From: an uncultured Methanomicrobiales archaeon
GTDB taxonomy: Archaea > Halobacteriota > Methanomicrobia > Methanomicrobiales > Methanospirillaceae
Length of the DNA: 37,302 nt
Reading direction: 5' to 3'
NCBI GenBank assembly: GCA_903828975.1
Contig: CAIKOD010000132.1
Coordinates: 1 to 37,302 of the forward strand
The notes beneath the pieces are model-generated. The model ran no database searches. It saw only the letters and a program-made list of their open reading frames with translations, and was not told the origin of the DNA. The stretch's first letter is position 1. Each line of letters opens with the position of its first letter. This document shows positions 5,400 to 37,302 of the stretch, in pieces. Position numbers and translations under genes: made by a program.

Positions 5400-5430
5400 G
5401 ACAGTCTGGCTGAAAACTCAGTACGATACT

Positions 5431-5438
5431 CTTATAGG
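5431..5438 (+). promoter_or_regulatory. TATA box for the lipoprotein gene
   Basis: CTTATAGG is centred about 28 bases before ATG 5462, so the transcript is probably leaderless or nearly so. Confidence 0.45.
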
Positions 5439-5461
5439 TATGTTCACACGATAACACCGTT

Positions 5462-20000: not shown

Positions 20001-21239
20001 GGCAAAGAGCTCCCCTTCAATAACATACACAAGACCGAAGAAATGGTCAATGCCAAGGACTTTCTGGATTGCAAAACTCATTGCAGGCGGGATTTGTCCA
20101 AAACTGACGTCAGTAAGAGTCGGGAGCTTTTTAACAGCAGTACCGACAATTTCCGTGAACTCATCCGCACTGATAACCGTCTTTATCTCGCGGGGATCTT
20201 TTCCCAGCATCTTTACCGCTTTTTCCAGTAGGCCATGCCCGGACTCGAGGTGGCTGATAATAAGGGCGTGGTCAGCAGGATGATAATCCGAGTACCAGGC
20301 CGCCACCCCCCCGGTTAACTCCATCAGCTTCCGGACAATGAATGTTCCGATGCTTTCACCGGCCGGCAGCAATGCAAGTTCCAGGGAGAACTGGTTCATT
20401 GCTGCGAGGAACTGGTTTTGTTCCTGCAACGATTGTTCCGTTTCTTTCATCCGGGTGATATCCCGGATTGATTCTATTGCACCGCTGATTTGGCCTTTCT
20501 GGTTAAAAAGCGGGCTAGCCTTGCCAATGAGTGTCCGTTGCACCCCTTTCGGTTTCGGGAGGTCCGTTTCAGCAATGAGGACGTCTTTTTCGCGAGAAAT
20601 GCCTTTATAATGTTTGCTGATATCTTCTTCCGGCTTAAAAATCAGGTCAATAAGAATGGGGCGTCGTTTTCCATAGAAGGGGATCGCATACTCGTACTCC
20701 CCCTTCCCCAGAATATCAACCGCAGGGACACCGGTCATCTCTTCGATGGCGCGGTTCCATGCAATGACCTGGCCTGAACGGTCGATTGCAAACGTGGCAT
20801 CGGGCAGGAAGTTGATGATATCGGCGAGTCGCTTTTCAGATTCATTTAGCGAATTTTCGGCCTGCCGACGGGCTATCGCCTGCCGGATCTTATGTTCCAG
20901 CTCGGCAAACTGGGCTTTCGGGTCTCCGCCTTTCTGGAGATAGAAGTCCACACCGTTGTTGATCGCCTCGATCACCACCTCCTCACGGCCCCGCCCGGTG
21001 AAAAGGATAAACGGGATATTCCCGTGACTGCCGCGAACGGCTTTTAAAAGGTCAATGCCGTCCATATCCGGCATCTGGAAGTCAGAGACGATGGCATGGT
21101 ACGACTGTGTACCGATCGTGTGGAGTGCGTGCTCTGCGGAAGTATCGATATCGACGGAAAAATCGTTTGAACGTTCCAGAAAAAGTTTTGCTATCTCTAA
21201 CAGGCTCGGCTCATCGTCGATATAAAGTATCCGGTACAT
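14016..21239 (-). CDS. Giant soluble receiver / multi-PAS / GAF / histidine kinase, 2407 aa
   Basis: Residues 1-120 are a receiver domain with acidic D9/D10, phosphoacceptor D53 (VSDFQMPDMDG), T81 (FTGRGREEVV) and K103. A first PAS domain (about 140-260) is followed by a GAF-like domain (about 280-450). Thirteen further PAS units of about 130 residues follow, each ending in a D-I-T-x-x-K/R-x-A-E type motif and an ALRESEERF-like coiled linker. PAS 13 has a Cys cluster (CYELIGHDAPCEIC). Three linkers are longer coiled coils (EELRGQYEEL type). The transmitter has His2208 in TRHDVINQL, N-box NLFDN, G1 box VEDNGVGIP and G2 box TGLGLFLA. There is no membrane segment, so sensing is cytoplasmic (redox, light, gas or small ligands through PAS). 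A receiver at the N-terminus suggests it both receives and passes on phosphate. AGGT before ATG 21239 is a weak ribosome binding site. The length is extreme for the family; the gene is uninterrupted. Confidence 0.93.
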   Translation of the reverse strand: MYRILYIDDEPSLLEIAKLFLERSNDFSVDIDTSAEHALHTIGTQSYHAIVSDFQMPDMDGIDLLKAVRGSHGNIPFILFTGRGREEVVIEAINNGVDFYLQKGGDPKAQFAELEHKIRQAIARRQAENSLNESEKRLADIINFLPDATFAIDRSGQVIAWNRAIEEMTGVPAVDILGKGEYEYAIPFYGKRRPILIDLIFKPEEDISKHYKGISREKDVLIAETDLPKPKGVQRTLIGKASPLFNQKGQISGAIESIRDITRMKETEQSLQEQNQFLAAMNQFSLELALLPAGESIGTFIVRKLMELTGGVAAWYSDYHPADHALIISHLESGHGLLEKAVKMLGKDPREIKTVISADEFTEIVGTAVKKLPTLTDVSFGQIPPAMSFAIQKVLGIDHFFGLVYVIEGELFATSVLAIGKGKPAPSVGLLESFSHMVAVSLRRRSAEEKLHEGEEKFRTVADFTFGWEYWEAPDHSIIYMNPSCERISGYTREEFQQKSSLLDSIVDPRDREVWENHRKEADETKTLLSLDFRIVRKDGEVRWINHTCHPVFDSAGLHQGRRASNRDITEKKRVDDELRAAYEQLSASQEELQGQFEEILLSGKKIQESEEKFRTFMEASIDGVLLIEADGTLLAWNPSAEQIFGIPASEALKSNIVDLQVRLIVPEHQNPAYIEGLRSQFTTSFPEIFSRNSPLFLEVEVMNARGRRMTIQQALFPIQTSVGKRIGCIVREVTEQRNAEKNLKESEAKYRELAELLPQMVFEMDLDFKVTYANQIALTTMGQTDKDLEAGVSALSFIDPSDHERVRQNIEKIFCGETVANHEYTAVRRDGSTFPVMIYAAHFSRFGKPAGFRGILIDITDQKRTENALRESERFLKETQKIARLGGWKANPHTDYLEWTDGIYDIIEAPRSYRPGLTEGMKYYASGDIPVIREKVAVCLSTGEPFAMEARIITETGKQVWTELRGLAPVIEGIRSYAIGTLQDITGRKLMEDALRESEERFKTLFEKSSEAQLLLDSTGRVSECNAAFLTLFALQDNQEILGHSPDDFAPEFQPDGIRSSERGDEILAAVMKDGMVRYEWAHLKHDPARTLILTDVICTLIQIAGQPMIHTSIRDVTDQKNAEGELREREATLSSIFRAAPVGIGMVSNRVLMRVNDRLCEMTGYSAEELVGKSARIIYPDDEEFERVGREKYELIRKFGTGAIETRWRRKDGEIRDVLLSSTPLDPENHIAGVTFTALDITDRKRAESELRIAYEQIAATEEELRGQYEELANSEQRIRESEAKFRAIIDQSFQFIGLMTIDGILIEANQAALKFAGISESAVINRPFWETPWWSHSADLQEVLKDSIQRAASGETVRFEATHPAADGHLAYIDFSIKPMVDSTGRILYLIPEGRDITERKQAEGALDESEWRYRTLYDNLRDGSAAVDLEGKIIQCNAAFSAILGYSADELKNLSYDDITPAKWHESENRILKEQVDIRGYSDLYEKEYRNKDGKVIPIEIQTYIIRDQDHQRIGYWAITRDITERKRAEEAVRRSEEKYRLLAETSPDMIYFIDPDGFVRYVNSRSAEAFHAAPSELIGKHLTEIFPPDVASHHLDSIRRVITTRQTVSHEIPDDLPSGRIWIEARLTPVLNPDDTVIGVLGISRDITERKKTVEALRESKERFRRLISSSFDAVVVHREGRVVLANDAATRIMGVVSTAELVGRPVLDLVHPEFRANVAERVQLMLQSPEGTAPPIEEKFVRSDGTFVDVEVMATVTQHEGQPAVQVVFRDISGRKKAEAELLSTYQNLTATEEELRQQYEELGQNEEKLRVSEEKFRMLVETTSDFIWEVDENGTYSYVSPQVRELLGYEPEELIGKTPFDFMHPDEALRVAAEFTRLVDSRLPISSLENSCIHKNGSIVVLETSGVPRLAKDRSFAGYRGIDRDITMRKHVEEAIRNSEAALLEKSAMLEALFNAIPDVIGVQDLHHGIIRYNAAGYAMVGKNPGEVAGKRCYELIGHDAPCEICATSESYQTKKPAVVQKYVPELDIWLDVRSYPVLDDTGEIRFIIEHLRDISDQKRAEASLREKREELDQYFTTSLDLFCIADTDGYFRRMNPEWEKVLGYRLAEMEGHKFLDFVHPDDLPSTLDAVAKLASQNAVLNFTNRYRHKDGTYRWFEWRSFPKGIRIYAAARDITERRNMENAVREVNRKLNLLNSVTRHDVINQLMVLQGYTQIAEMENPGPVIAGLLARINDSSLAIARLVEFTRTYQELGIHTPAWFRLDEIIATTGKTVVLLSGTCNQVEIFADPLLERVFFNLFDNADRHGERVTEVTIRCEPVQERLVIIVEDNGVGIPADEKEKIFGRGYGKNTGLGLFLAREILAITGITICETGVPGKGARFEIAVPDGVYRFTNDNTTR

Positions 21240-21341: not shown

Positions 21342-24300
21342 TTATACGGGTGCAGTGATCCGGTAGGAGCCTTTTGGTACCGTAATTGTAAAAACTGCCC
21401 CTTTTCCCGGCTCACCGGTCTCGCGGATAGTGATGCTGGTAATGGCGAGAATCTCACGTGCCAAAAAGAGGCCAAAACCGGTGTTCTTCCCGTAGCCTTT
21501 CAGAAAGATCTTTTCTTTGCAGTCGGACGGAACCCCGGTCCCGTCATCCTCCACGGTGATAGAGAGCCCGCCCATGTCCTGTTCACAGCGTATCCTGATC
21601 ACCGTCACCCGCTCGCCATGACGCATGGAATTGTCGATCAGATTAAAGAAGACCTTCTCGAGCATGGGATCGGCAAAGACCTCGGCATCACAGGTACAGG
21701 ATATCTGTATATTCTCCGGTTTGTGCCGGGAAACCATTTCACTGACACGATACCAGCCAGGAGCATTCATCCCGAGCTCCTGGTATAACCTTGTAAACTC
21801 AATCACCCGCGAGATCGTAGAGCCGGCCGCTTCAATTTTCGATAAGAGATCAGCAACGACCGGGTCAGGCCGCTCCATCAGTGCGATCTGGGCATATCCT
21901 TTCAGGATAGTGACCTGGTTGGCCACATCGTGCCGGGTGATGCTGGCTAAGAGATTGATCTTCCTGTTTGTCTCCCGGATAACCTGTTCTGTCCGCTTAC
22001 GATCGGTGATGTCAAGAAAACTGACAAGGCTTGCGACAATGCGGTCCTGGTTGTCAAAGATTGGGGCCCCGAATATCTCAAGCCGGACCCGTGTGCCATC
22101 TGGTCTCACGACAACCATGTCATCAACATGGCTGAGCTCCCCGTGCATCCCCCGGATAATCGGCATATCCTTCGCAGGATACGGGACGGAGGTCCCCACC
22201 CTGCTTGCTTCATAGATGTCTGCAAGGTTCTCTTCTGTTGCATCGGGCATGATTCCACGCCCGAGAAGCCTTGTTGCTTCCCGGTTGGCGATGATCGGTC
22301 TTCCTGACGGGGCCTCGACCATGAAAATTCCCATCGGCACCGTATCGAGGAGCGTGCTGATGAGCCGGTTCCGGTAACCGAGTTCATCTGTCCTCTGCCG
22401 CAGGGCGTCTTCTGCACGCTTCTGGTCAGTGATATCCCGGAAGATTCCGATAATTGAGGTTCTTCCAGTGAGATCAACACGGCTCGCATTGATCGAGACC
22501 GGCACCCTTCTGTTATCCTTTGTTATAATAACCGACTCAACGCTGGTATCCATGCCGAGAGCATATTTATGGAAATGTTCCATCGTCTGTTCCAGAACAT
22601 CCTCCGGGTGGAGCTGGTCTGCACGCATCGAGATGATCTCCTGCCGTGGATACCCGGTAAGGACCTCGGCACGCCTATTGCAGTCAATGAGCATCCGGGT
22701 TTTCGGGTCCGCAATAAATATGGCATCGTTACTCTGCTCGAACAGGAGCCGGTACTTCTCCTCGCTCACCCTGAGTGCCCCGGCTATCTTTTGCTGTTCC
22801 GAAATATCACTCAGCGACTCGACCAGTACCTTTTTCCCGCTGATTATTGCCGGGATGACGGTTTTTAAGACCGGGATGTGCTTACCCTGGTTCGTGACAA
22901 GGATACGCTCCGAGGCATCGATCTTCTGCCCGAGGTCAGTCATGGGACACTGGCCCAGTTCGCAGGGGCAGATGAACTGGTGACACACGGAACCGATCAC
23001 TTCATCCTCCTTTCCTGCACCTATCATGGCCAGTGCCTTTGGATTGGCATCAAGGATTATATGAGTCGCAGCATCGATGATTACAATACCGGTCTGGACG
23101 GACTGCATGATCGTATGCAGCCTTCCCTCGCTCTCACGAAGCGCATCTTCGGTCCCCTTCCTCCTTCCAATGTCGATTACGGTAGCTATCCCGCCGGCAA
23201 AGGACCCGTCAGTGTTGTGGAGTGGTGCGGTACTCATGAGCGTCGTAATATAGGACCCGTCTTTTTTCTGGAACCGGAATTCATGCTGTTCGGAGGCCCC
23301 TTCCTTCCGCTCGGAGAATTTCCCGGCAGCCACTGCCCGCCATGCCTCATCCATGAACATGAAGAGACCTTTACCCACCATTTCGTCGATCGTGTACCCG
23401 AGCATACCGGCCATAATCGGATTGACATAGGTCGTTACAGCATCCGTATCAATGACCCAGATCCCTTCGTTCACCGAGGTTAACAGCGTCCGGTACCGCG
23501 CCTCGCTTGCCTGCAGCGCAATTTCTGCTTCCTTCGTATGGGTTATATCACGGCCTACCGACTGGTATTCGGTGACCGTTCCAAAAGGATCGAAGTTTGC
23601 ACGGTCGCTCCACCGCTGCCACCGTATTCCACCGTCCGGCATGATAATCCGGTGTACGATGGTGTCGACAGGATTGCCCGGGGTCAGGGATTCAAAAAAC
23701 TGCCTCACGCGTTTCTGGTCTTCAACGGGGATCTCCGGACGGAACCGGTGCCCGAGTATCGCTTCACGTTTCAGCCCGAAATACCGGCAGTAGGCTTCAT
23801 TGACAAAGATGTGGGTGCCGTCAGGTAAGAAACGGGATATAAACTCGGTCTGGTCCTCGACCACGTCCCTGTACCGCTGCTCACTCTCCATAAGGGCTTC
23901 GTCTGCCCGGATCCGCTCAATGGCAGACCCGATCTGTGTTGCAATCATTTCAAGGGCGACACGGGCAATTGCCGGGATCTCATTCATGGTATGCGAGGTG
24001 ATGTTTAAGCTGGCAATGACCCTGCTGTTGTGGAGGATCGGTATGATGGCTGCAACCTTCAGGCCCTCCTGTTCCTGGACAGGGCTATGAATAATACCTG
24101 TTTCACTGTATTGCACATAGATCGGTTTTCCTGCCATTATCATCCGGGCATTTTCTGAACCGGAAGGATAACGGGATACGCTTTGTACGAACTCGTACCC
24201 GAGGTTCTGTGAGACGATGAGATCAATAGAGCCACTTACACCATCGATGAGATAGATCCCTCCGGCGTCCATCCCTGAGATCTCGATCGCTGCATTCAGG

Positions 24301-25184
24301 CAGGTCATCATGGTAGTATTGAGTCCACGGACTGACTGGAGCTCTGTCCCAAGATCAAGCTGGGTGCGGAGGATGTGATCCCGCTGTTTCCGCTCGGTAA
24401 TGTCCCGGATTGACTCGATAGCCCCGATGATGCAGCCCTGCGTGTCATACAACGGGGAGGCGGTGAACCAGAGGGCGGCCCCTTTTCCATCGTTCATGTG
24501 AGGGATCGTGATTTCTGAGAACAATTTTTCCCCTGATCGTGTGATGTACGGATACTTTGCTTCCGTTACCGGGTCATCTTTGAGGACGAGGTCGATGAGG
24601 ATCTGGCGTCGTTCCCCATAAAACGGGATCCCATATTCGTAATTACCTTTTCCGAGGATATCCAATGATGGTATTCCGGTCATTTTCTCCATCGCCCGGT
24701 TCCATGCAATCACAACTCCCCTGTTGTCAATCGCAAAGGTCGCATCCGGCAGGAAGTTAATGATATCAGATTCCCTGCGCTCATGGTCCCGGATGCTGGC
24801 CTCAGCCCTCCTCTGCAACACGGCTTTCTGGATTTTATGTGCAAGTTCGGCGAACTGTGAGACAGGTTCCCCGCCTTTCTGGAGGTAGAAATCAGCCCCC
24901 TCGTTCAGGGCCTCGATAACGACCTCTTCCCGGCCGCGGCCGGTGAAGATAATGAACGGAACGTTGTTGCCCGAAGCCCTGACCTTTTTTAAAAATTCGA
25001 TGCCATCCATCCCAGGCATCTGGTAATCGGAGATAATGGCATCGTACCCTTTTTCGGTAATATATAGGAGCGCTTCTGAGGCAGATTCAACCGTATCAAC
25101 AGAAAAAAGGCCTCCACGCTCAAGGAAACGTTTGCCAATTTCGAGCAGGGCGGTTTCATCGTCAACGTAGAGAACAGATATCAT
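21342..25184 (-). CDS. Soluble receiver / PAS / GAF / histidine kinase, 1280 aa
   Basis: The start is taken at ATG 25184, not at the ATG 27 bases upstream, because CCAGGA lies at proper spacing and because MISVLYVDDE matches the receiver start of the neighbour (MYRILYIDDE). Order: receiver 1-120 (D53, T81, K103), PAS (about 135-265), GAF (about 275-430), five more PAS (about 440-1070), then the transmitter with His1085 in TRHDVANQ, N-box NLIDN, G1 VEDDGTGVP and G2 TGFGLFLA. One PAS (fourth) has a Cys cluster (CHQFICPCELGQCP). The N- and C-terminal ends closely resemble those of the 2407-residue protein just downstream, with a ~100-base gap, so the pair arose by duplication plus gain of PAS units. 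It may be co-transcribed with it and act in the same circuit. No dedicated output regulator is seen nearby. Confidence 0.93.
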   Translation of the reverse strand: MISVLYVDDETALLEIGKRFLERGGLFSVDTVESASEALLYITEKGYDAIISDYQMPGMDGIEFLKKVRASGNNVPFIIFTGRGREEVVIEALNEGADFYLQKGGEPVSQFAELAHKIQKAVLQRRAEASIRDHERRESDIINFLPDATFAIDNRGVVIAWNRAMEKMTGIPSLDILGKGNYEYGIPFYGERRQILIDLVLKDDPVTEAKYPYITRSGEKLFSEITIPHMNDGKGAALWFTASPLYDTQGCIIGAIESIRDITERKQRDHILRTQLDLGTELQSVRGLNTTMMTCLNAAIEISGMDAGGIYLIDGVSGSIDLIVSQNLGYEFVQSVSRYPSGSENARMIMAGKPIYVQYSETGIIHSPVQEQEGLKVAAIIPILHNSRVIASLNITSHTMNEIPAIARVALEMIATQIGSAIERIRADEALMESEQRYRDVVEDQTEFISRFLPDGTHIFVNEAYCRYFGLKREAILGHRFRPEIPVEDQKRVRQFFESLTPGNPVDTIVHRIIMPDGGIRWQRWSDRANFDPFGTVTEYQSVGRDITHTKEAEIALQASEARYRTLLTSVNEGIWVIDTDAVTTYVNPIMAGMLGYTIDEMVGKGLFMFMDEAWRAVAAGKFSERKEGASEQHEFRFQKKDGSYITTLMSTAPLHNTDGSFAGGIATVIDIGRRKGTEDALRESEGRLHTIMQSVQTGIVIIDAATHIILDANPKALAMIGAGKEDEVIGSVCHQFICPCELGQCPMTDLGQKIDASERILVTNQGKHIPVLKTVIPAIISGKKVLVESLSDISEQQKIAGALRVSEEKYRLLFEQSNDAIFIADPKTRMLIDCNRRAEVLTGYPRQEIISMRADQLHPEDVLEQTMEHFHKYALGMDTSVESVIITKDNRRVPVSINASRVDLTGRTSIIGIFRDITDQKRAEDALRQRTDELGYRNRLISTLLDTVPMGIFMVEAPSGRPIIANREATRLLGRGIMPDATEENLADIYEASRVGTSVPYPAKDMPIIRGMHGELSHVDDMVVVRPDGTRVRLEIFGAPIFDNQDRIVASLVSFLDITDRKRTEQVIRETNRKINLLASITRHDVANQVTILKGYAQIALMERPDPVVADLLSKIEAAGSTISRVIEFTRLYQELGMNAPGWYRVSEMVSRHKPENIQISCTCDAEVFADPMLEKVFFNLIDNSMRHGERVTVIRIRCEQDMGGLSITVEDDGTGVPSDCKEKIFLKGYGKNTGFGLFLAREILAITSITIRETGEPGKGAVFTITVPKGSYRITAPV

Positions 25185-25380
25185 AACATTCCTGGCAGGA
25201 TGCGTAAACAATTGTAGATATCAATCATCGATACATAATCATTTCCTTAAGGATGTATGGTATCGCCGAGTGAATTTCACTGCCGCCGTGGACAGGTAGG
25301 AGAGTTGGGCCTGGTTTTATATGGTGTCCCTTAAGGTGGCCGGGAATAATTCGGGAGGATAAGAACGGATAGGGACCGCA

Positions 25381-27134: not shown

Positions 27135-27377
27135 TCAGCACGGAGCTGCCATTCCCGGCATATATTTCCTGATATCAACCTGCGAACCATTCTTTGCCAT
27201 CCGCTCTGCCAATTGAAGTAACTCTCTTACTACGATTGAATCGACGTAATCTTCTCCGCAGTTTGTGCAGATCTGGGCCGGAACTTCCTTAACAACAAGG
27301 GTGAAATCATCCCGGTTGAGGGTGACAGTAGTAGTTCCCTGTTCCGTCTCGCCAGTTTTACAGATAGTGCACTTCAT
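27135..27377 (-). CDS. YgiT-type zinc-finger antitoxin, 80 aa
   Basis: The start at ATG 27377 is chosen over the upstream ATG at 27407 because GGAGG (27383-27387) lies just before it and because the protein then begins MKCTICKTGE, the usual family start. Two CxxC pairs (CTIC near residue 3, CTNC near 37) bind zinc, with the TTVTLNRDDFTLVVKEVPAQICTNCGE segment between, as in MqsA/YgiT N-terminal domains. The C-terminal helix (VVRELLQLAERMA) ends in a VDIRKY motif. It lacks the HTH half of full MqsA. Its ATG overlaps the TGA that the neighbouring DUF4258 toxin would have if not frameshifted (ATGA), so the pair was one toxin-first operon. Confidence 0.88.
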   Translation of the reverse strand: MKCTICKTGETEQGTTTVTLNRDDFTLVVKEVPAQICTNCGEDYVDSIVVRELLQLAERMAKNGSQVDIRKYMPGMAAPC

Positions 27378-27690
27378 TTTTTCCTCCTTACAAAACCCGA
27401 TTCCCATTTGGATACATCAGGTTCGTACGCTGTGATAACAATTACCTCATTATCTACATTATTGTAGCCATAACGACATGGAGCGGTCGGTCATTACCTT
27501 CACCAAGAAGGAGATAACTTGGGTATGGAGTATCGTCCTGATATTCTTCGATTACTTTTCCATGAGTTATGATTTCTGTAACTTCATGCTCCGATATCTT
27601 CCGGTCAAATATCTGCTTCACGGCATGCACCCGGTACAGAATTCCCGCTGACCCAATATTGTTTTGGAAGTCCCGACGTCCAGGTTTCAT
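27374..27690 (-). pseudogene. DUF4258 toxin, broken by a -1 frameshift near its C-terminus
   Basis: ATG 27690 follows GGGATGAT. The first frame encodes a DUF4258 domain (VHAVKQIFDRKISEHEVTEI, THGKVIEEY, YPSYLLLGE, RPLHVVMA) but stops at TAG 27454-27456. Reading on in the next frame from about 27468 gives YNNVDNEVIVITAYEPDVS, then KWESGFVRRKK and TGA at 27374-27376, which is the normal end of the family. One lost base near 27466-27471 explains this. DUF4258 proteins are toxin-like partners of YgiT-type antitoxins. The truncated 78-residue form lacks the last conserved strand and helix, so the toxin is probably inactive, while the antitoxin is intact. A sequencing error would look the same. TATA-like AAATATAGATATT lies upstream (about 27735-27747). 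Confidence 0.8.
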
Positions 27691-27705
27691 GAGATCATCC
27701 CACAA

Positions 27706-28734: not shown

Positions 28735-28877
28735 TCGCCCCTGCGACCGACCCACCCCCACTCCCCGCCCTACCAAGCCTAAAGGGCGGGGCCACACCAC
28801 CGGTGCCTCCTGTCCGCTCCCTTTCGGCTTCGCGAAAGAATTTCGCCCGGCGAAATTATGGAGCGGAGGGCAGGAGG
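28735..28877. repeat. Hairpin-rich GC-rich non-coding block
   Basis: CCCCGCCC (28763-28770) pairs with GGGCGGGG (28784-28791). Then an outer stem, CCTCCTG and TCCGCTCC (28806-28820) with GGAGCGGA and CAGGAGG (28860-28877, 3-base bulge), encloses two hairpins: CTTTCG/CGAAAG (28821-28838) and AATTTCG/CGAAATT (28839-28857). It sits between AT-rich genes just after the stop of the gene at 28882. It could be a bidirectional terminator or a small palindromic mobile repeat. The left end shares TCGCCCCTGCGACC with 26353-26366. Confidence 0.55.
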
Positions 28878-28881
28878 ACCA

Positions 28882-29484
28882 TTAATCCTCTGTTACTACG
28901 AGATCGGCTAGTCCACTTTCAAGATCCCTCTGTGATACTTCGGGTCTATTAACTTGATCAAGTCGGACCTGCCTGGATACAATTCTCCGGGGTGGCCCGT
29001 CCCGTCTTTGCTGTTTCTTTAACTGGCTATTCCTGATTACATTTGCCCAGTCTGCATAGAGGTATGCCCTGCCTGATGCCCGGAGAAGAGATCGCATAAA
29101 TCTATCGAGATACCGGGAATACACAACCACCGTACCTTCGTTACGAGCAAACGTTTTCAACCGGTTAATGACACTCGGAATCAATTTCGTATCAGCTTCA
29201 TAGAGCGAAGGATCGTGCTCGATAATGAGGTAGGTTGCGTCACATTCGTTGATGATCGTGGCAATCTGATCAGATGTGAATCCTCTCCGGACAGAAAACT
29301 CAAACGTGGTTCTATGAAGGTTCGGGAGCACTCCCGAATAATTGCTGCAAACATAGAGGAAGGGATAACGTCGCATTGTGCCGCTACTACTGTTTAGACC
29401 CTCTTCGAGGATACGGGAGGGACCAATGATTACGGTTATTGTCCGTTCGGGTATGCAGATATCACCTGGCCATTCGAGGTCCAT
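28882..29484 (-). CDS. Unrecognised protein, possibly a degenerate RecA-like fold, 200 aa
   Basis: Not assigned to a named family. The first ~145 residues alternate hydrophobic strands and helices: TITVIIGPSRILEEG (15-29), RRYPFLYVCSNYS (38-50), GFTSDQIATIINECDA (68-83), YLIIEHDPSLYE (85-96), SVINRLKTFARNEGTVVVYSRYLDRFMRSL (strand and helix, 104-133), GRAYLYADW (138-146). The pattern strand-IIEHD followed by a helix and VVVYS resembles the late strands of RecA/KaiC-like ATPases, but there is no Walker A motif, so ATP binding is unlikely. The tail (150-200) is basic, then acidic. It is divergent from the META lipoprotein gene, sharing a TATA region. Start ATG 29484 has no strong ribosome binding site and may differ. 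Confidence 0.6.
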   Translation of the reverse strand: MDLEWPGDICIPERTITVIIGPSRILEEGLNSSSGTMRRYPFLYVCSNYSGVLPNLHRTTFEFSVRRGFTSDQIATIINECDATYLIIEHDPSLYEADTKLIPSVINRLKTFARNEGTVVVYSRYLDRFMRSLLRASGRAYLYADWANVIRNSQLKKQQRRDGPPRRIVSRQVRLDQVNRPEVSQRDLESGLADLVVTED

Positions 29485-29562
29485 GATAGGTGCTATGGGT
29501 TACCGGTCCAGGTTGATAAGGTCAGGGGGCGTGCGGGATGAAAGTGTGCAGATATCGATAAG

Positions 29563-30175: not shown

Positions 30176-31012
30176 TTCGGTACCTTAATTTTTGGCACAA
30201 ATTTTTCGATTTCATGAGAAAATAGATTAAAAGTAATCTCCTCCGCTATTCATCTGTCACAGGATTTTAACGGGGGTGACGGGCATCATGTTCGCTCCGT
30301 CGTTTCCTCACTCCCCTTCGTTTCGTTCCGGGCCTCCTCCGCTCACTTCATGCCCTGGTTTTTCCGACGGTCCCAGGGTGATACTTACGGCCAAGACTTC
30401 GTCGCGGTGCTCCTCGTCATCGCCTGATCCTTCCCGCTCCGGGACTCATGGCTGATGCCATAGGTCCCTTCGCTGAGTACCGTACAAGTGCAGACGCTCT
30501 GTGACTCGTTCACGCGACGCATGTGGGGCTCGGACGATCCGCCTGATAGCGTCTCGTTACCTTCGCACCCCATAGCGGCGTTCACTCGGGCCGCTTGGCC
30601 CTTAATAATCAAGAATAATTACCGGTCGCTTTCCGTTCCACTTGCGACCTGGCCACTCATGAGGGGTGCAGACCCGGCTGAGGCCGTGTCACCTGCGAGC
30701 ACCCCGCCGCCCCTTTGATTTGGGATAGGCCTTCCTCGATGAACAGACCCTGGGCGGGAAAGCACCCTGGTTACGACCGGTCGCTGCCGGTCGTCGGAGG
30801 TGCTGGGTGGGCGTGGCAAGCTGGGAAAATTCCGGTACACAATAAGAGCAGGCCGGTTACGGGACGCCTGGCGGACCGTCGTGCCTGCTGGGGCCCCAAT
30901 TTTACCAGGAAGCGTTATCAAAACAGAAATAAAGTCAGCGGGTTACATATTAACCGACCGGGCCGGCCGGCTGCGACAATATGCGACACGTTCAAAGCCG
31001 GAGATCTCCCGG
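30176..31012. other. Long non-coding stretch containing inverted-repeat copy A
   Basis: After the lipoprotein stop there is ~100 bases of AT-rich DNA, then repeat copy A (30281-30700), then ~300 bases of GC-rich DNA with short palindromes (for example ACGACCGG/CCGGTCGT, 30773-30794, and GGAGATCTCC, 31000-31009, just after the HTH stop). No protein gene is supported. Confidence 0.55.
30281..30700 (+). repeat. ~420 bp inverted repeat, copy A
   Basis: The reverse complement of this segment matches 34043-34456 along nearly its whole length, by eye about 80-85 percent. The core is almost identical: 31 bases (30469-30499), one mismatch, then 37 bases (30501-30537). A conserved hairpin AGCGGC/GCCGCT lies in both. 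The opposing 75-codon frame (30385-30612) resembles the frames in copy B, but substitutions do not favour third positions and copy B has a frameshift, so coding is doubtful. Confidence 0.75.
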
Positions 31013-31201
31013 TCACCTTGTCGAACTCTCTTTTACGAACTGGTCAAATTGTTCCTGGCTTATTCTCCATTCGGCACCTACACGCAATGCCCCGAGTTTA
31101 CGTTTCGAAATGAGGCCCCTCACGGTCTGATCATGCACCTTAAGCATCGCAGCTATTTCCGAGACCGTATAAAATTGAGGGATAGTGGGAGCCTTGGCCA
31201 T
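31013..31201 (-). CDS. Excisionase-like helix-turn-helix protein, 62 aa
   Basis: The whole protein is one MerR/excisionase-type winged HTH: FYTVSEIAAMLKVHDQTVRG (residues 10-29), then LISKRKLGALRVGAEWRISQ (30-49) and a short C-terminal helix. This is the HTH_17 pattern used by phage and plasmid excisionases and by small regulators. It is the last gene of a seven-gene operon, nine bases after the DUF6573 stop. GGAGG lies 14 bases before ATG 31201, rather far, so expression may be low or coupled. A candidate operator (33129-33141) lies at the operon promoter; autoregulation is possible but not shown. No integrase is in the window. Confidence 0.88.
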   Translation of the reverse strand: MAKAPTIPQFYTVSEIAAMLKVHDQTVRGLISKRKLGALRVGAEWRISQEQFDQFVKESSTR

Positions 31202-31210
31202 GGATAGTAC

Positions 31211-31651
31211 TTAGTCCTCCCCGGGGAGCATAATAGTAATCACCGGCTCGCCCTCATCACCTGGTCCACAGACCGCTTTGAGTTCTACGGTTTCACCACC
31301 CCTGACATATACAATTCCGGTCGCCCTGGCTTTTTCCTGCAGGAGTTCAAAGGCCACCCGGAATATGATAACGCTGCTTCCGCGGGATTTCGTCGCAGCC
31401 ATCCGGAACATCCAGAGCAGGTCCCACAGGCGTCCGGTCACGTCCTGGTCGGGCATCCTATCGAGATAGTGGGGTTCGATATAGCGCTCCCAGGCCGCCC
31501 GGGTCATTGCGACCGGGACCGAGATCCCCGCCTGCCGGGTGAGGTCCTCGGGTGCTGCGACCAGTTCTCCGTCCTGCAAACCGTCGGCCCGGGTGTACCG
31601 GCTGATGATATCCTCCTCGGTCCAGAATGGATGTGGGGTTGAGGTGGTCAT
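31211..31651 (-). CDS. DUF6573 family protein, 146 aa
   Basis: ATG 31651 is preferred to the ATG 81 bases upstream: it overlaps the TGA of the previous gene (ATGA), and family members begin near this point. Features: IISRYTRADGLQDGELV (about 18-34), QAGISVPVAMTRAAWERYI (about 41-59), GRLWDLLWMFRMAA (about 72-85) and the very conserved end LKAVCGPGDEGEPVITIMLP (about 124-143). DUF6573 proteins are of unknown function and are common on phages, plasmids and integrative elements, so the gene is a marker of mobile DNA. It is probably cytoplasmic. It precedes the HTH gene and follows five small unknown genes in the same operon. Confidence 0.88.
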   Translation of the reverse strand: MTTSTPHPFWTEEDIISRYTRADGLQDGELVAAPEDLTRQAGISVPVAMTRAAWERYIEPHYLDRMPDQDVTGRLWDLLWMFRMAATKSRGSSVIIFRVAFELLQEKARATGIVYVRGGETVELKAVCGPGDEGEPVITIMLPGED

Positions 31652-31854
31652 ACCCGGCCACCCCGGAGACGTGGTTTTCCATTCGTGAAGCCAGGCCGGA
31701 TGACAATCTGGTTGGATGCCACTTTCGACCACATCCAGCCCATATTATGATTATGTGCATATACTGCGGCGAAATCCACCGCAGCACTATGATCGATACA
31801 CTCGGCGATGAGCTGGGGCCCTATTCCTCTATTAACAAAAATTTTGTATTCCAT
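31648..31854 (-). CDS. Small unknown protein, 68 aa
   Basis: Two adjacent ATG codons exist (31857 and 31854); the second is chosen because GAGGTG (31860-31865) is then five bases away. The frame overlaps the next gene by four bases (ATGA). The product starts MEYKIFVNRGIGPQLIAECI, has a short Ala/His segment (DHSAAVDFAAVYAHNHNMGW) and ends basic (GKPRLRGGRV). No family is recognised. The tight coupling on both sides supports a real gene. The 352-codon frame covering it (to 32706) is not real: it crosses four other well-signalled genes. Confidence 0.65.
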   Translation of the reverse strand: MEYKIFVNRGIGPQLIAECIDHSAAVDFAAVYAHNHNMGWMWSKVASNQIVIRPGFTNGKPRLRGGRV

Positions 31855-31856
31855 CA

Positions 31857-32189
31857 TTACACCTCGGCATGATGGCCGCAGGCCGGACAATTGTATCCTG
31901 CGAAGTAGTTCACGGACCCGGCCCGCTCTGGCACTCCCTGGTCTTCTGTCCCGGTTATATGGTCCTCGATTGGGACGACCGCACCGCAGTTCTCGCACAC
32001 TTCTGCGCCTGCAGGGAAATCGCACCCATCGATCGCATACCTGGCATCGCCGTTGTATCGCTCGCAATGGTGACAGGGAAGTTTTCCACTTTCGCGTATG
32101 CAGGTGTATTGTGAACAATCTGAACACCGGGAAGAAAGGATTGGATGATGCATGGGTCGGAATGGCCGCCATGCTGGATGTGAACCCAT
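31857..32189 (-). CDS. Cys-rich zinc-ribbon-like protein, 110 aa
   Basis: Ten cysteines: C22/C25, C30, C39/C42, C56, C65/C68 and C101/C104, i.e. four CxxC pairs, which suggests two zinc sites. ATG 32189 follows GGGAGGTG at good spacing and directly follows the TGA of the previous gene, so the start is firm. The spacing of pairs (CSDC, CHHC, CENCG, CPACGHH) is of rubredoxin/zinc-ribbon type. No family is recognised. Zinc ribbons of this sort often bind nucleic acids or partner proteins; the role here is unknown. It overlaps the next start (TAATG). A second Met (residue 13) is a less likely start. Confidence 0.75.
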   Translation of the reverse strand: MGSHPAWRPFRPMHHPILSSRCSDCSQYTCIRESGKLPCHHCERYNGDARYAIDGCDFPAGAEVCENCGAVVPIEDHITGTEDQGVPERAGSVNYFAGYNCPACGHHAEV

Positions 32190-32408
32190 TCACGCCACCT
32201 CCCGAAGAATTAATGCACCGAAATCGAGCGGACCGGATGCGGTCATAACGGAGTAGATGTTTCCTGTAATTACTATCCGGTCTGTTCCTTCGCGCCACCC
32301 TTCGACCATATCGGAAGCGTGATTCCTCGCCTCTTCTTCGGTCGAAAAAGTGTTGGGGTTTTCTATTTTCCCCGTGACCAGGTCGATCTCGTAGACAACG
32401 AACGGCAT
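32190..32408 (-). CDS. Small unknown protein, 72 aa
   Basis: The start is set at ATG 32408, not the ATG at 32531, because GGAGGT lies seven bases before it and the TAA of the upstream gene overlaps it (TAATG). The product starts MPFVVYEIDLVTGKIENPNT, followed by an acidic helix (FSTEEEARNHASDMVEGWREG) and a strand pair (DRIVITGNIYSVMTA). This is an alpha/beta mini-domain with no Cys. No family is recognised. It is certain only as part of the operon. Confidence 0.7.
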   Translation of the reverse strand: MPFVVYEIDLVTGKIENPNTFSTEEEARNHASDMVEGWREGTDRIVITGNIYSVMTASGPLDFGALILREVA

Positions 32409-32722
32409 TATGATACCTCCGCCCGCTCGGGTCCGTGGCATTGATGCATCGAGATACACCGTTTGACGGTGACATACTTTCCGCATGCCCCTGACCAGTC
32501 GATCGTATCTTTTGTGTGCAGCCACCGACAAGATGAACAGCGGTCCCCGATCTCGTTCGACGCTTCATCACAGGTCGTTTCTTGTTCATATTGATCTTCG
32601 ATCTCTCTCGCCTGGTATGCAAGATCCTGTGCATCGAACTCAATCGCTGTTGCCTGTTTCTGTAACCGGGCAGATTCGCCCCGTAGTGCTGCGATGAGTG
32701 CTGCATCTTCGGCGGTTATCAT
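32408..32722 (-). CDS. Coiled-coil / Cys-rich protein, 104 aa
   Basis: ATG 32722 overlaps the previous stop (ATGA) and follows GGGGGT. Residues 1-49 are a long amphipathic helix (MITAEDAALIAALRGESARL, then QKQATAIEFDAQDLAYQARE), likely a coiled coil. The C-terminal half has six cysteines (C51, C62, C65, C80, C89, C95) with a CxxC at 62-65, consistent with one zinc site. No family is recognised. A helix plus zinc module suggests a small binding or adaptor protein; this is inference. Confidence 0.72.
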   Translation of the reverse strand: MITAEDAALIAALRGESARLQKQATAIEFDAQDLAYQAREIEDQYEQETTCDEASNEIGDRCSSCRWLHTKDTIDWSGACGKYVTVKRCISMHQCHGPERAEVS

Positions 32723-33108
32723 GCCGGGACCCCCTGGGGTGTTGCAGGTCCTTTCACCATTGCTGCAGGCACCCATTCAATCGTGGAGATGTTCGCGAAT
32801 TTCCTTGAACCTGCGACGGTTGCCCGCATATGAGAGAGTGGGGAGATGTATCGCCGGCCCTTGATCTGATACATTACTGCCCGGCCGGACCCGTTGATCC
32901 ATGCCTGGCCTGCGTCGATTGGTTCGCCGGTATTGTTCCAGACCGGGCCCATGTCCCACACGGTCACACGTGACCGGTCCTCTACCAGGCGTGATACATC
33001 AGAGCGGGCGATTGCGGCCTGGACTATTTTCACATCGATTCTCAACATGCCGCCGGAGAGTTTCACGGTTCCGACGTGCTCAATATTGGGAAATACGGTT
33101 TGCGACAC
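32719..33108 (-). CDS. Unknown protein, first gene of the seven-gene operon, 129 aa
   Basis: The start is GTG 33108, with GGTGA (33115-33119) six bases upstream; a TATA box and palindromic operator candidate lie just beyond. The product is mainly beta: MSQTVFPNIEHVGTVKLSGG, IDVKIVQAAIARSDVSRLVED, SRVTVWDMGPVWNNTGEPID, AWINGSGRAVMYQIKGRRYI, and a tail ending WVPAAMVKGPA. No Cys and no recognised family. It overlaps the next gene by four bases. As the first and best-expressed gene it may be the key product of the operon, but its role is unknown. Confidence 0.75.
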   Translation of the reverse strand: MSQTVFPNIEHVGTVKLSGGMLRIDVKIVQAAIARSDVSRLVEDRSRVTVWDMGPVWNNTGEPIDAGQAWINGSGRAVMYQIKGRRYISPLSHMRATVAGSRKFANISTIEWVPAAMVKGPATPQGVPA

Positions 33109-33128
33109 GTTCTTTCACCACATACTAT

Positions 33129-33141
33129 GTCAACGTTTGAC
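33129..33141 (-). promoter_or_regulatory. Palindromic operator candidate between TATA box and start
   Basis: GTCAA-CGT-TTGAC is a perfect inverted repeat with a 3-base centre. It lies directly downstream of the TATA box (33142-33150) and upstream of the predicted transcription start (~33122), where a bound repressor would block polymerase. Confidence 0.5.
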
Positions 33142-33150
33142 GTTATATAT
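33142..33150 (-). promoter_or_regulatory. TATA box for the seven-gene operon
   Basis: TATATAACG on the minus strand. Predicted transcription start about 33122, leaving a ~14-base leader with GGTGA before the GTG start at 33108. Confidence 0.5.
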
Positions 33151-33452
33151 CGTCTCCATGTGCGGTGTGAAAGTGAATATAGTATTATATCGTCATATAA
33201 TGCAATAATAAAATTAGAAATTTTGCCCTGCGGGTCAGCCCACTGCCGGCCTCCGGCCGTCTCCGAGGGCTGCCCCTTCGGGTTCTCGTTCGTTGGTGCG
33301 CTGTCGCTCCTCGACGCCGCGACGGCCTGGCCGGCCGTAACCGGGCGTCTTCGTCGCTGGTTGTGTGGTTGACCAGACCATCCTATTTCAACCTGTCATT
33401 CAATCCGCCTCTATTGGTTTGATTTTTATTCGTATCGCACATTCATCCTACT

Positions 33453-33962
33453 ATGGACCCGGCCAAGATCCAAGCCCTCGAAGATAGGTTAGGACACAAT
33501 TTCACTGATCGAAAAAAATTGTATCAGGCCCTTACACACTCAACGTTCTCTAACGTGGAAAAAAAGAAGCAGGTTGGAGCAAGAGATTGCCCGCATCAGG
33601 AAGCTTATGCAGTCCTGGGGGATGCAATTTTAAAAACAGTATTTGTATGGATGCTCATGGATAGGGGACATACAACCAAAGGGGACATAACTAAATTAAA
33701 AGAGGATTTGGAAAATAACTTGAAATTGGCGGAAGTAGGGAAACGTCTCCGTCTTCTTGAGGACGAATTATTTATCCACAATGTAGGTTCAGAAGAAAAG
33801 TTGAGAGAAGGAGCAGACACATATTATTCCGATACCGTTGAGGCGTTGATCGGTGCAATTTTTATCGATAGTAAATTCAATTTTTCAATGACTCGGAACA
33901 GCATATCCAAGATATTTGCGCAAGAATTGGCAAATTTAGAGAGAGATGTTAGCAATTGTTAA
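33453..33962 (+). CDS. RNase III-domain protein without dsRNA-binding domain, 169 aa
   Basis: The protein is a single RNase III endonuclease-like domain. ALTHSTFSN (26-34) and HQEAYAVLGDAILK (48-61) match the signature region; D127 and E130 lie in YYSDTVEALIGAIFID (124-139). Compared with the E. coli motif NERLEFLGD, the first Glu (E50) and Asp (D57) are kept but the metal-ligand Glu is Ala53. There is no C-terminal dsRBD (E. coli RNase III is ~226 residues). Similar short proteins occur in archaea; role unknown. The start ATG 33453 is close to a TATA-like TTTTTATT, so a near-leaderless transcript is likely. It is divergent from the seven-gene operon and ends ~80 bases before inverted-repeat copy B. 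Confidence 0.85.
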   Translation: MDPAKIQALEDRLGHNFTDRKKLYQALTHSTFSNVEKKKQVGARDCPHQEAYAVLGDAILKTVFVWMLMDRGHTTKGDITKLKEDLENNLKLAEVGKRLRLLEDELFIHNVGSEEKLREGADTYYSDTVEALIGAIFIDSKFNFSMTRNSISKIFAQELANLERDVSNC

Positions 33963-34504
33963 TCTGTTGTCGTCTATAATAACTTGTTCCCTCGTTGCCG
34001 AGTCCGGTGCTCTCTCCCAACCCAATCCTGTTCACCCGGGCCGTCGCAGGTGGCATGGTCTCAGCCAGGCCTCGGCCACCACAAGTAGCTCGCAAGCGGT
34101 AGCGGAAAGCGAGCGATTTTTTATTCAATTTGGGGCCAAGCGGCCCGAGTGAACGCCGCTATGGGGAGCGAAGGTAACGAGACGTTCTCAAACGGCTCGT
34201 CCGAGCCCCACATGCGTCGCGTGAACGAGTCACTGAGCGTCTGCACTTGTACGGTACTCAGCGAACGGGACCGATGGTATCAGCCATGTGTCCCAGAGCG
34301 TGATGAATCAGGCGATGACGAGGAGCATCGCGACGATGTCATGGCCGTCAGTAGCACCCCGGAATAATCTGAAAAAACAAGGGCATGATGTGAGCGGAGG
34401 AGGTCCGGAACGGAAACGAAGTGAAGTGAGGAACCGAGGGAGCGAACATGATGGCCGAGGGAAATATTACAGAAAGCAGTTGGCCGATAAATTAATTGAA
34501 GGCT
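33963..34504. other. Long non-coding stretch containing inverted-repeat copy B
   Basis: Repeat copy B (34043-34456) fills most of it. Left of it is a short GC-rich stretch after the RNase III stop, right of it the end of the HEPN-like gene. Open frames at 34149-34367 and 34288-34515 lie in the repeat and are not supported. Confidence 0.55.
34043..34456 (-). repeat. ~415 bp inverted repeat, copy B
   Basis: Matches the reverse complement of copy A (30281-30700). The core runs 34197-34233 and 34235-34265 with one mismatch. The two copies flank 3.3 kb that holds the seven-gene operon and the RNase III-domain gene. No target duplication is visible at the outer edges, and no transposase lies between the copies. 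Confidence 0.75.
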
Positions 34505-34876
34505 TTATGGTTTAAGACTTGACACAATTCGTTCCGCCTTGCCAATTGAGGCTCGCGAATTATTATCCGTAGCCACATAACAGGGCAAATCGTAATCACA
34601 ATCGTTTCTCCATTGTCGTAATCTATCCAATTCAGAGGAAATCGGTCGTAAATTGTGATCCGAGAAGCAGACTCGTAGGGTTTTATGATCCTCCTCGTTA
34701 CCTTCAGGTGTGTACCCTAAGTAGTCAACCGCATAAGTCCTGGCGTGACAAAATGCAGCATAATAGGACCTACCGATTGCAGATCTATAGGCTCCCTCTT
34801 GGGGGATATTATTAGATATACCATTTGAATGGAGAAATTTCGCAATATCGAGAAAGTGTGTCCACTCAAATTGCAT
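34505..34876 (-). CDS. HEPN-like protein, 123 aa
   Basis: All-helical protein with the layout of HEPN domains: a first helix (FEWTHFLDIAKFLH region), then AYRSAIGRSYYAAFCHARTY (29-48), a loop, and a last helix with RLRQWRNDCDYDLP (85-98). The RSAIGRSYYAAF helix and the R-x-x-x-D-Y variant of the HEPN catalytic motif (R90...Y95) are typical of HEPN proteins from toxin-antitoxin and defence loci, many of which are RNases; the canonical R-x4-6-H is not seen, so nuclease activity is uncertain. ATG 34876 lies three bases after the previous stop. It is last in a TIGR04255-unknown-HEPN operon beside hsdM. Confidence 0.75.
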   Translation of the reverse strand: MQFEWTHFLDIAKFLHSNGISNNIPQEGAYRSAIGRSYYAAFCHARTYAVDYLGYTPEGNEEDHKTLRVCFSDHNLRPISSELDRLRQWRNDCDYDLPCYVATDNNSRASIGKAERIVSSLKP

Positions 34877-34879
34877 GTA

Positions 34880-35434
34880 TTATCCTCTTGGGGGACGAAA
34901 ATCTGAAGTCACAAGGAGCCAGCCATTTTGACCCTCCAGAGCAGGTTCGTATTCTCTGCAGATGGAGTCGATCTTGTCGAGAATATCTGAATCGTACTTA
35001 TTCTGCCGGACATAAATCGTAATGTATTCATCGGAAATTTCCGGATCATGGTACATTTCGATACTAACTTCAGCATTTCGTCCAAAAGTCTCTGCCGTGA
35101 CAATGCATGCAAAGAGTGTTGCATCATATATTCCACGATATCGCAGAAGATAATCCACAACTTCGTCAGAATTATGAATTCTTAACCCGAGATACTGAAT
35201 TAGTCGGAGAAGGGAATATTCGACGGTTGCAGCATTGCGAGTAAAATCTTCTTTGTACAGGTTTTGATTTATTGCGTCAGAATATGAGGATTCAACAAAT
35301 GTTTCCATCAAAATTTTATCGAGCCATTCATTTAATTTTTGTATCCATGGAACCTCGGAGCTGTCGTAAGGATGTTTTTCTATCCAATATTTCCTCTGAT
35401 AACCCAGTGAACCGGCACTCGAATATTCTGACAA
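34880..35434 (-). CDS. Unknown protein between TIGR04255 and HEPN genes, 184 aa
   Basis: The start is TTG 35434, fixed by GGAGG (35443-35447) eight bases upstream; no ATG is nearby, and the upstream stop is three bases away. The product is helical and charged: MSEYSSAGSLGYQRKYWIEK, a W-rich helix (WIQKLNEWLDKIL), AATVEYSLLRLIQYLGLRIH (about 69-88), DYLLRYRGIYDATLFACIVT (about 94-113), then a strand-rich C-terminus (YITIYVRQNKYDS) ending QNGWLLVTSDFRPPRG. I do not recognise the family. Its place between two genes of a likely defence or toxin unit suggests it is part of the same system. AT-rich base use fits horizontal gain. Confidence 0.75.
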   Translation of the reverse strand: MSEYSSAGSLGYQRKYWIEKHPYDSSEVPWIQKLNEWLDKILMETFVESSYSDAINQNLYKEDFTRNAATVEYSLLRLIQYLGLRIHNSDEVVDYLLRYRGIYDATLFACIVTAETFGRNAEVSIEMYHDPEISDEYITIYVRQNKYDSDILDKIDSICREYEPALEGQNGWLLVTSDFRPPRG

Positions 35435-35437
35435 TTT

Positions 35438-36178
35438 TTAAACCTCCTTATTAAACAAATCTTCCAGTTTTGGTGTTATGCACCCTTTGAATTGATCACG
35501 AACGATGTTATGTGCTTCCTCGACCCAATCCAAAGCTGCGTCCGGGGATACAGTATTTTTTTGAGCAAGATAATACTCCGTTGTTAAAATGAATGCCGAA
35601 TTATTAGGATTGTCCGGAATTGCCGAGGTAAGTTGTAATTTACATATATCTCGTTTGTTACTATATGGAAATTCGCACCCAATTAGGAAATTAATAAAAT
35701 TCTGAGGAAGGCTCGACCCCAAAGAGGGGCTAAACTGAAAATATTCTTCCATAACAACCGTACTTCCGGGAATCTCAATTTTGTCAATATACAAAAGTGC
35801 AGCCCTGTCAATTCCTTCAATATCTGTAAATTCTTTTATGGTATTGAATGCTTGATGAATTTTAGGTTTAAAACTCTCCCATCCGGGGTATGGTTTTAAA
35901 TGATTTACGGAGAGTATTCGATCTCCAATTTGCAGGAGTGATTTTCGATCATTTGTCAATATTACGGCTTTCTTTGAGGGCGTTTTAATCCGGTGTCTCA
36001 CACCGGTATCATCCACCTGCATTTCTATTTCTTGTTCAAGTTTACTCTCTCGTATCGGGAATTCGGATTTTAATTTCCCATATACAAGACCAGGGATAGT
36101 TGGATCCCATTTTGTTTCAGGAGAGAAACGGAATTCACATACAGCTTCAATGATCGGGGGATTACGATATTGCGTCAT
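35438..36178 (-). CDS. TIGR04255 family protein, 246 aa
   Basis: The N-terminus QYRNPPIIEAVCEFRFSPET is the hallmark of this sporadically distributed family, followed by a strand-rich middle (LLQIGDRILSVNHLKPYPGWESF at about 81-103; RAALLYIDKIEIPG at about 125-138) and a C-terminal half ending in a helix (DAALDWVEEAHNIVRDQFKG). Typical length is 230-280 residues. Function is unknown; members often stand upstream of toxin-like or defence genes. It is the first gene of a three-gene operon with three-base gaps. ATG 36178 follows AGGAAAT; the promoter is somewhere in 36179-36330. The unit directly follows hsdM, where hsdS would be expected. Confidence 0.85.
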   Translation of the reverse strand: MTQYRNPPIIEAVCEFRFSPETKWDPTIPGLVYGKLKSEFPIRESKLEQEIEMQVDDTGVRHRIKTPSKKAVILTNDRKSLLQIGDRILSVNHLKPYPGWESFKPKIHQAFNTIKEFTDIEGIDRAALLYIDKIEIPGSTVVMEEYFQFSPSLGSSLPQNFINFLIGCEFPYSNKRDICKLQLTSAIPDNPNNSAFILTTEYYLAQKNTVSPDAALDWVEEAHNIVRDQFKGCITPKLEDLFNKEV

Positions 36179-36331
36179 TCGGCGATTTCCTATTCCGATG
36201 ATTAGCCACTATTACATTCCAATTGTGACATATTACAGAAATGATACTATAATAGGTTATTCCTTTTAATCAGGAGAAAAAATCCGAATTTAGTTATTAT
36301 TTATCGCCTTAACTTTGTATTAATTTTACGG

Positions 36332-36350
36332 ATCCATCTGGGTGATGGAT
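36332..36350 (-). terminator. Hairpin after hsdM
   Basis: ATCCATC (36332-36338) pairs perfectly with GATGGAT (36344-36350) around a 5-base loop, 18 bases after the hsdM stop. A T-poor but AT-rich tail follows on the minus strand. It would separate hsdM from the next operon. Confidence 0.45.
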
Positions 36351-36367
36351 TAAGAGTATAAATAATG

Positions 36368-37302
36368 TTATTTCGGCAACAACGCCCTTAATTCCTTAAT
36401 ATTCTCTTTAATCTGGTCTTCCAGGTTCTCTATTTTCTGGAGGATTACTTCCGGTTTTTCGTATGAAATATCCTCATACACGATCTCCTTGTACCGTGAA
36501 AGCGAAAGGTCGTACCCGTTTTCCTTAATTTCACTGATTGGAACATAGAAGCACTTTTGAGTCCGGTCAGCCGGGTTTTCCTCTTTTCTCCTTCTGAACT
36601 GTTCAATGATATCAGGAATATCCCCCTTGCGATCGATCGGTGTCCGCTTGTCATCGAGGGAATATCCATCTGACTCCATATCGTAGAACCAGACTTTTTC
36701 CGTGCTGCCGCCCTTGGTGAAAACCAGGACTGCGGTTGACACTCCCGCATAGGGTTTGAATACACCTGATGGCATCGAGACTATGCCTTCCAGCTGGCAT
36801 TTGGTGAGGAGGAGTTCCCGGAGTTTTTTATGGGCATTTGAACTCCCGAACAGGACCCCGTCCGGGACAATTACTCCGCATTTCCCGCCTGTCTGGAGGA
36901 GGAGGAGCATCCTCTCGACGAAGAGGAGCTCGGTCTTGGTAGTCGGCAGGGAGAGGAGATCATTGATATCAGTTTTATCGATGCTGCCCTTGAACGGAGG
37001 ATTTGCGAGGACAATGGTGTAACGCTCCTTCTCCTGGAAACCCTTCGAGAGCGTGTCCGTCAGTTGGACCTGTGGCGCCCGGATCCCGTGAAGGACCATG
37101 TTCATGAGGGAGATCCGCACCATGGTCGAATCAAAATCGTAGCCGTAGAAGGTATCTGTCCAGAGCTTCTCCCAATGTTTTGGATCCGTAATCCTGTCGC
37201 CTATCAGGTTATATGCTTCTCCGTCCTCGTCAACCTCGACCATTTCCGGGCTTGTGTACCGGCGGATGATGTACTCGTACGCATTGACAAGGAACCCAGC
37301 AG
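36368..37302 (-). CDS. hsdM: Type I restriction-modification DNA methyltransferase subunit, C-terminal part
   Basis: The frame enters at the right edge (311 codons visible) and stops at 36368. The first residues, AGFLVNAYEYII, are the end of the SAM-binding motif I region (GTAGF). Catalytic motif IV is NPPF (in VLANPPFKGS, about residue 100 of the visible part), preceded by FYGYDFDSTMVRISLMNMVLHGI, a standard HsdM block. Later segments GKCGVIVPDGVLFGS, LEGIVSMPSGVFKPYAGVSTAVLVF and the tail SRYKEI, then a coiled coil (VILQKIENLEDQIKENIKEL), complete it. HsdM methylates adenine N6 as part of HsdM2S. The start and the N-terminal helical domain lie outside. No hsdS follows; three unrelated genes do. 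Confidence 0.93.
   Translation of the reverse strand, partial: AGFLVNAYEYIIRRYTSPEMVEVDEDGEAYNLIGDRITDPKHWEKLWTDTFYGYDFDSTMVRISLMNMVLHGIRAPQVQLTDTLSKGFQEKERYTIVLANPPFKGSIDKTDINDLLSLPTTKTELLFVERMLLLLQTGGKCGVIVPDGVLFGSSNAHKKLRELLLTKCQLEGIVSMPSGVFKPYAGVSTAVLVFTKGGSTEKVWFYDMESDGYSLDDKRTPIDRKGDIPDIIEQFRRRKEENPADRTQKCFYVPISEIKENGYDLSLSRYKEIVYEDISYEKPEVILQKIENLEDQIKENIKELRALLPK

Follow-up and report, generated by a model that had tools for sequence, protein, structure and literature searches.

The closest described relatives of the locus examined here belong to four kinds of system. Mobile insertion cassettes of the MIC231 type place passenger genes between the ends of an insertion sequence (IS), whereas MITEs are short, non-autonomous and without coding capacity. 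Casposons encode Cas1 (the casposase) and a protein-primed PolB between terminal inverted repeats (TIRs) that measure 25-602 nt in archaea (PMC4046053), and the same authors drew attention to a Cas1-solo group found in Methanomicrobiales alone (PMC4046053). Finally, in the ardC regions of pLS20 and p576, ArdC and small genes follow GC-rich, inverted-repeat-rich stretches of 400-600 bp (PMC8708921).

Here we compare with these systems a locus in 37,302 nucleotides of DNA from an uncultured Methanomicrobiales archaeon (contig CAIKOD010000132.1, positions 1 to 37,302; hereafter the window). With a probability of roughly three in four, positions 30280-34457 are a single member of a Methanoregulaceae family of non-autonomous mobile gene cassettes. 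For such elements in Methanoregula the open literature yielded no report, and subscription papers could differ.

Two long inverted arms enclose a seven-gene operon

Self-BLAST aligned positions 30280-30698 with 34457-34044 as inverted arms of 84.2% identity over 423 columns (E 2.4e-123), and repeat finding in the window recovered the same two arms as four ungapped blocks. The ~420 bp inverted repeats that an initial annotation had placed around the operon are thus real. It had described their identical core as 31 + 37 bases; both runs are correct, but a third was overlooked, the longest exact runs being 37, 34 and 31 bases. Seven genes on the minus strand (33108 to 31013) and a single RNase III-like gene on the plus strand occupy the interval between the arms:

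30280..30698, plus strand: 3'-side arm, SP-distal; outer limit of the homology at 30280 (CGGGCATCATG...)
31013..31201, minus strand: HTH_17 / excisionase-family DNA-binding protein, last operon gene (Pfam 1.2e-12, TIGR01764 3.7e-14)
31211..31651, minus strand: DUF6573 (PF20213), second recurrent core gene (1.7e-26)
31648..31857, minus strand: p69, small protein, strongly conserved in sister elements (dN/dS 0.04-0.11)
31857..32189, minus strand: p110, small Cys-rich protein, recurrent
32190..32408, minus strand: p72, small protein, recurrent
32408..32722, minus strand: p104, Cys-containing small protein, recurs in sister elements
32719..33108, minus strand: SP, 129 aa, first operon gene, common to all element types, no known family
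33453..33962, plus strand: RNase III-like gene, 169 aa, 40% GC as in the host flanks (Pfam 3.9e-16)
34044..34457, minus strand: SP-proximal 5'-side arm, an inverted copy at 84% identity with its outer limit at 34457

GC content is 60% in the arms and 55% in the operon, against 39-41% in the immediate flanks and 40% in the RNase III gene. Family matches inside the element were limited to HTH_17/excisionase, DUF6573 and RNase III, which agrees with the earlier reading of an excisionase-like gene accompanied by five small genes without assignment. That reading also saw no transposase or integrase, and we likewise detected no such domain among the scanned window ORFs of at least ~90-120 aa. No Rfam family reached the gathering threshold in the window or in four further loci. 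The idea of an arm as an individually structured strand was rejected (z -1.2; 12 of 100 shuffles folded equally well).

The surroundings of the element have features of their own. An ~820 bp unit at 28735-29553 comprises a 200-aa gene without a Pfam match and a GC-rich hairpin repeat of ~150 bp; the unit is found at 90% identity beside another element of the same genome (L037 3102-3926) and at 80% in G003 (L047), and the hairpin repeat recurs alone beside other elements. Directly beside the element, at 34505-37302, are genes for a HEPN-like protein and for a type I restriction-like N6 DNA methylase, possibly a defence island. Farther away are an MqsA-like antitoxin and DUF4258 gene pair resembling a toxin-antitoxin system (27135-27705) and two multi-PAS response-regulator/histidine-kinase ORFs of 2407 and 1289 aa (14016-21239 and 21342-25211), with DNA repeats both within and between them.

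The element belongs to a family within Methanoregulaceae

Searching with a single arm as DNA retrieved more arms in the same genome and its relatives, mainly in convergent pairs separated by a few kb. An SP profile searched against 232 genomes of the order gave 51 strong matches (counted by hand from the result table) in 38 genomes, confined to seven genera of Methanoregulaceae, with weak matches elsewhere; a scan of 84,980 species genomes returned only records titled Methanoregula, Methanoregulaceae or Methanomicrobiales. SP can serve as a marker gene for finding the cassette family. Long inverted arms stand on either side of SP at 31 non-redundant loci of 2.4-4.5 kb, hand-counted from self-comparisons of the fetched loci, in which arm length ranges from ~70 to 550 bp. 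Several of the remaining SP loci are cut by contig ends, and L127, L129 and L137 had no arm pair at the sensitivity used.

Carrier genomes, most of which are drafts, hold 1-7 copies at many unrelated and often intergenic sites. The operon runs SP, small genes, DUF6573, HTH_17 in genera g1, g9, g14 and g16, and SP, ArdC mainly in genera g5 and g12; ArdC is carried by about half of the family. Element GC exceeded flank GC in all 23 of 23 cases. Within the window's own genus the arms of most copies reach their outer limit at the same base (CGGGCAT), to which position 30280 corresponds, and arm ends in g5 read AGCCGGTC. The outermost ends vary and some copies have additional shared modules outside the arms, which makes the ends used here provisional; at these ends no consistent target-site duplication was seen.

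The initial annotation had also considered two insertions of one repeat family and had proposed a count of repeat copies in related genomes. On this view two independent insertions would flank unrelated genes by chance. A few solo arm fragments do exist (G028 2393801, G210:C2, L040), but the arms are low-copy and mostly paired, converging on one shared gene set; at 31 loci both stand in inverted orientation on either side of that gene family. We therefore reject chance insertion, whose probability we consider negligible. Nor is the segment peculiar to this strain, a prospect that the annotation had raised, given the 31 two-armed SP loci. As a separate observation, a ~250 bp repeat in the right flank of L123 (query 5401-5675) lies outside the elements and, in one Methanoregulaceae genus, is present many times per genome.

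Evidence for past mobility

That the arms and the SP operon recur at many unrelated loci in seven genera favours the non-autonomous mobile unit suggested by the initial annotation, and two further results back it, besides the GC excess over the flanks given above. The first is a pair of elements from two species, G000:C113 (a 3.7 kb contig of the window's own draft MAG) and G003:C276, which are 99.8% identical over 3490 bp at unrelated loci and whose flanks diverge 265 bp beyond the arm. One adjoins a tyrosine integrase gene on C89 and the other another gene, which in G000 has a counterpart free of any element. The second is a site between a gene that we take from our own reading of the sequences to be a cupin gene, beside a presumed sulfite-reductase-like gene, and tRNA-Gln(TTG). 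This site is occupied in five cases (L044, L045, L046, L112, L138), is reduced in G205 to a gene-less remnant with both termini at the tRNA (L151) where G210 has a full element (L117), and is empty in G035 and G209 (L165, L166), with ~0.45 kb between cupin and tRNA-Gln and no arm. Of the proposed search for empty sites and inverted orientations, the first part yielded this site and the second one flipped case (L114, below). The flanks of the window copy itself were found in none of 10 relatives searched, so that no empty site is available for it.

No active movement was observed. Low copy number and the use of the same site in several species count against frequent movement; with several copies at one old site, the distribution may owe much to vertical descent.

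Possible inversion and exchange between copies

The element would be an invertible cassette used for phase variation if flipping of the operon, by homologous or site-specific recombination, were the main role of the arms. The arms are long enough for a crossover, and one case has the expected appearance: L114 (G191) shares its tRNA-Gln junction with L117 (G210) and L138 (G017), at 81-84% over ~260 bp including the arm end and the tRNA, yet its interior is flipped. Its arm is a mosaic: as far as ~2024 it matches the 5' arm of L115, the nearest relative of L114, and beyond that point it includes sequence that L115 has solely in its other arm. Both features would be expected from a crossover between arms; alternatively, L114 may have inserted at the same hotspot in the opposite orientation, and the comparison is between related sites in different species. 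Against flipping as the main role, all five copies at the cupin site, from four genera, orient SP towards the cupin gene, orientation also agrees within L041/L118, L038/L045 and L124/L126, and most g5 elements keep distinct 5' and 3' arm identities. Moreover, the operon has an upstream region of its own, and it is therefore not obvious that a flip would act as a switch. We thus regard phase variation as quite unlikely to be the main function. The segment's ability to invert, proposed earlier, has the one flipped case in its favour, but with orientation nearly constant at other comparable sites inversion between arms is probably occasional or rare.

Copies may also exchange segments. The window copy is 90% identical to L033 over 31205-32429 and 76% over the SP part, and synonymous divergence can differ about tenfold between genes within one pair of copies. 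The best match of an arm is its partner in 25 of 58 cases and otherwise an arm of another element. Such arm and gene identities fit mosaic evolution with some homogenisation.

Operon genes, their selection and possible origin

Values of dN/dS between copies are ~0.03-0.25 in most comparisons, the maximum being 0.45 for one small gene. They indicate that the operon is under purifying selection, so the element proteins are used.

SP matched nothing in Pfam, PHROG, NCBIfam or PDB, and its predicted fold (pLDDT 85) resembled nothing convincingly in the PDB or among viral structures. DUF6573, which the initial annotation had called a mobile-DNA marker, does coincide with SP loci for most hits in Methanoregulaceae, but in another family of the order (f5) it is a single-copy protein of ~200 aa; we found no paper on it in the open literature, and subscription papers could differ. 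A search for defence systems gave just a weak HTH match to mad1, under the NCBIfam cut-off. Because ArdC occurs in about half of the family and distant SP relatives lie in proviruses, we infer an accessory role for the cargo, of the plasmid-establishment or anti-defence type.

The same genes raise the possibility of a satellite or a decayed integrated replicon, that is, a virus or plasmid with TIRs whose replication and integration were supplied by a helper. ArdC, an excisionase-like HTH protein and SP-like genes are what such elements typically carry, the distant SP relatives in proviruses of another Methanomicrobiales family (L140, L141) stand beside tape-measure and head-protease genes, and archaeal elements can have TIRs as long as those of the casposons cited above. 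However, no copy contains a replication, packaging or capsid gene, the SP alignment matched none of 2.9 million viral contigs, and SP had no match in plasmids. We consider such an origin unlikely, if the most plausible of the alternatives to a mobile cassette.

The RNase III gene needs separate treatment. The initial annotation was right that it lies between the repeats (Pfam 3.9e-16), but it is no part of the shared unit. It is housed in an extra ~626 bp (33365-33989) that sister elements lack, their SP upstream region joining the arm directly, and its homologues in seven other genomes (53-62% identical) have no arm within 1.5 kb. RNase III was accordingly rejected as family cargo, and judged from these comparisons the gene is a private insertion or passenger of the window copy.

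Candidates for the mobiliser

No copy carries a recognisable transposase, integrase or recombinase, a family-based check that an unfamiliar recombinase might escape. None of the solo arms inspected bounds a transposase; in G210 a single terminal module is accompanied by one IS-like transposase ORF. A tyrosine integrase was rejected as mobiliser; it lies near only a few loci (L146, L131, L129, L045).

Stand-alone Cas1 lies beside conserved host genes in the four genomes checked. As an observation in its own right, it adjoins a pair of paralogous genes of 430-450 aa in four genera (L247, L248-L250); the sole Cas1 of the window's genome is on another contig (C172; L247 4489-5415). Of the family's 108 genomes, 97 have Cas1 matches, and because Cas1 is so nearly universal its co-occurrence with the cassettes is uninformative and was dropped as evidence. 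That a host-encoded enzyme, with stand-alone Cas1 as the obvious candidate, moves the cassettes in trans, or that SP is itself a recombination protein, so far unrecognised, with the arms as its substrate, is a speculation to which we assign little probability. If true, Cas1-driven insertion would constitute a host-served, casposon-like system, and the cassettes give the stand-alone Cas1 of Methanomicrobiales, so far unexplained, a concrete context.

Discussion

The best reading of these results is a family of transposase-less, trans-mobilised cassettes that mostly stay put and swap genes. The arms would be the ends on which a recombinase encoded elsewhere acts in trans; insertions would be rare and then persistent, with the cargo presumably retained by selection. 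Copies would exchange genes and arm segments through recombination, and a crossover between the two arms may now and then flip the interior. In the window copy, the RNase III gene would have inserted later, between operon and arm. A mobile-looking family of this kind, in an important methanogen group, is without counterpart in the open literature that we searched. What mobilises a conserved, selected, recombinase-free operon becomes a testable question, for which occupied, reduced, flipped and empty sites are now defined.

Among known systems, plasmid establishment modules (pLS20/p576) are alike in having ArdC and small genes behind GC-rich, inverted-repeat-rich regions, whereas the present loci are chromosomal and archaeal and have one repeat per side, a single arm of which is not unusually structured. 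Casposons are similar in the long TIRs of variable length that they have in methanogens, in inserting downstream of genes and tRNAs, and in hosts with stand-alone Cas1. Unlike them, the cassettes contain neither Cas1 nor PolB, having no ORF of the latter's size, and the casposon target duplication of 1-27 nt was not identified. MITEs are likewise non-autonomous with inverted ends, and the gene-less remnant L151 is MITE-like, but full copies here extend over 2.4-4.5 kb, carry selected genes (seven in the window operon) and remain at low copy number (1-7). Mobile insertion cassettes are alike in their inverted ends, lack of a transposase and presumed mobilisation in trans; here too inverted terminal repeats surround passenger genes, with no transposase inside as judged by recognisable families. 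The differences are arms of ~70-550 bp in place of the short IS ends of MIC231, no related autonomous IS found and no target duplication seen, and a gene set conserved across genera. Overall, this is a new cassette family, built on the plan of a mobile insertion cassette and distinguished by its conserved operon and long arms and presumably served by a mobiliser encoded elsewhere.
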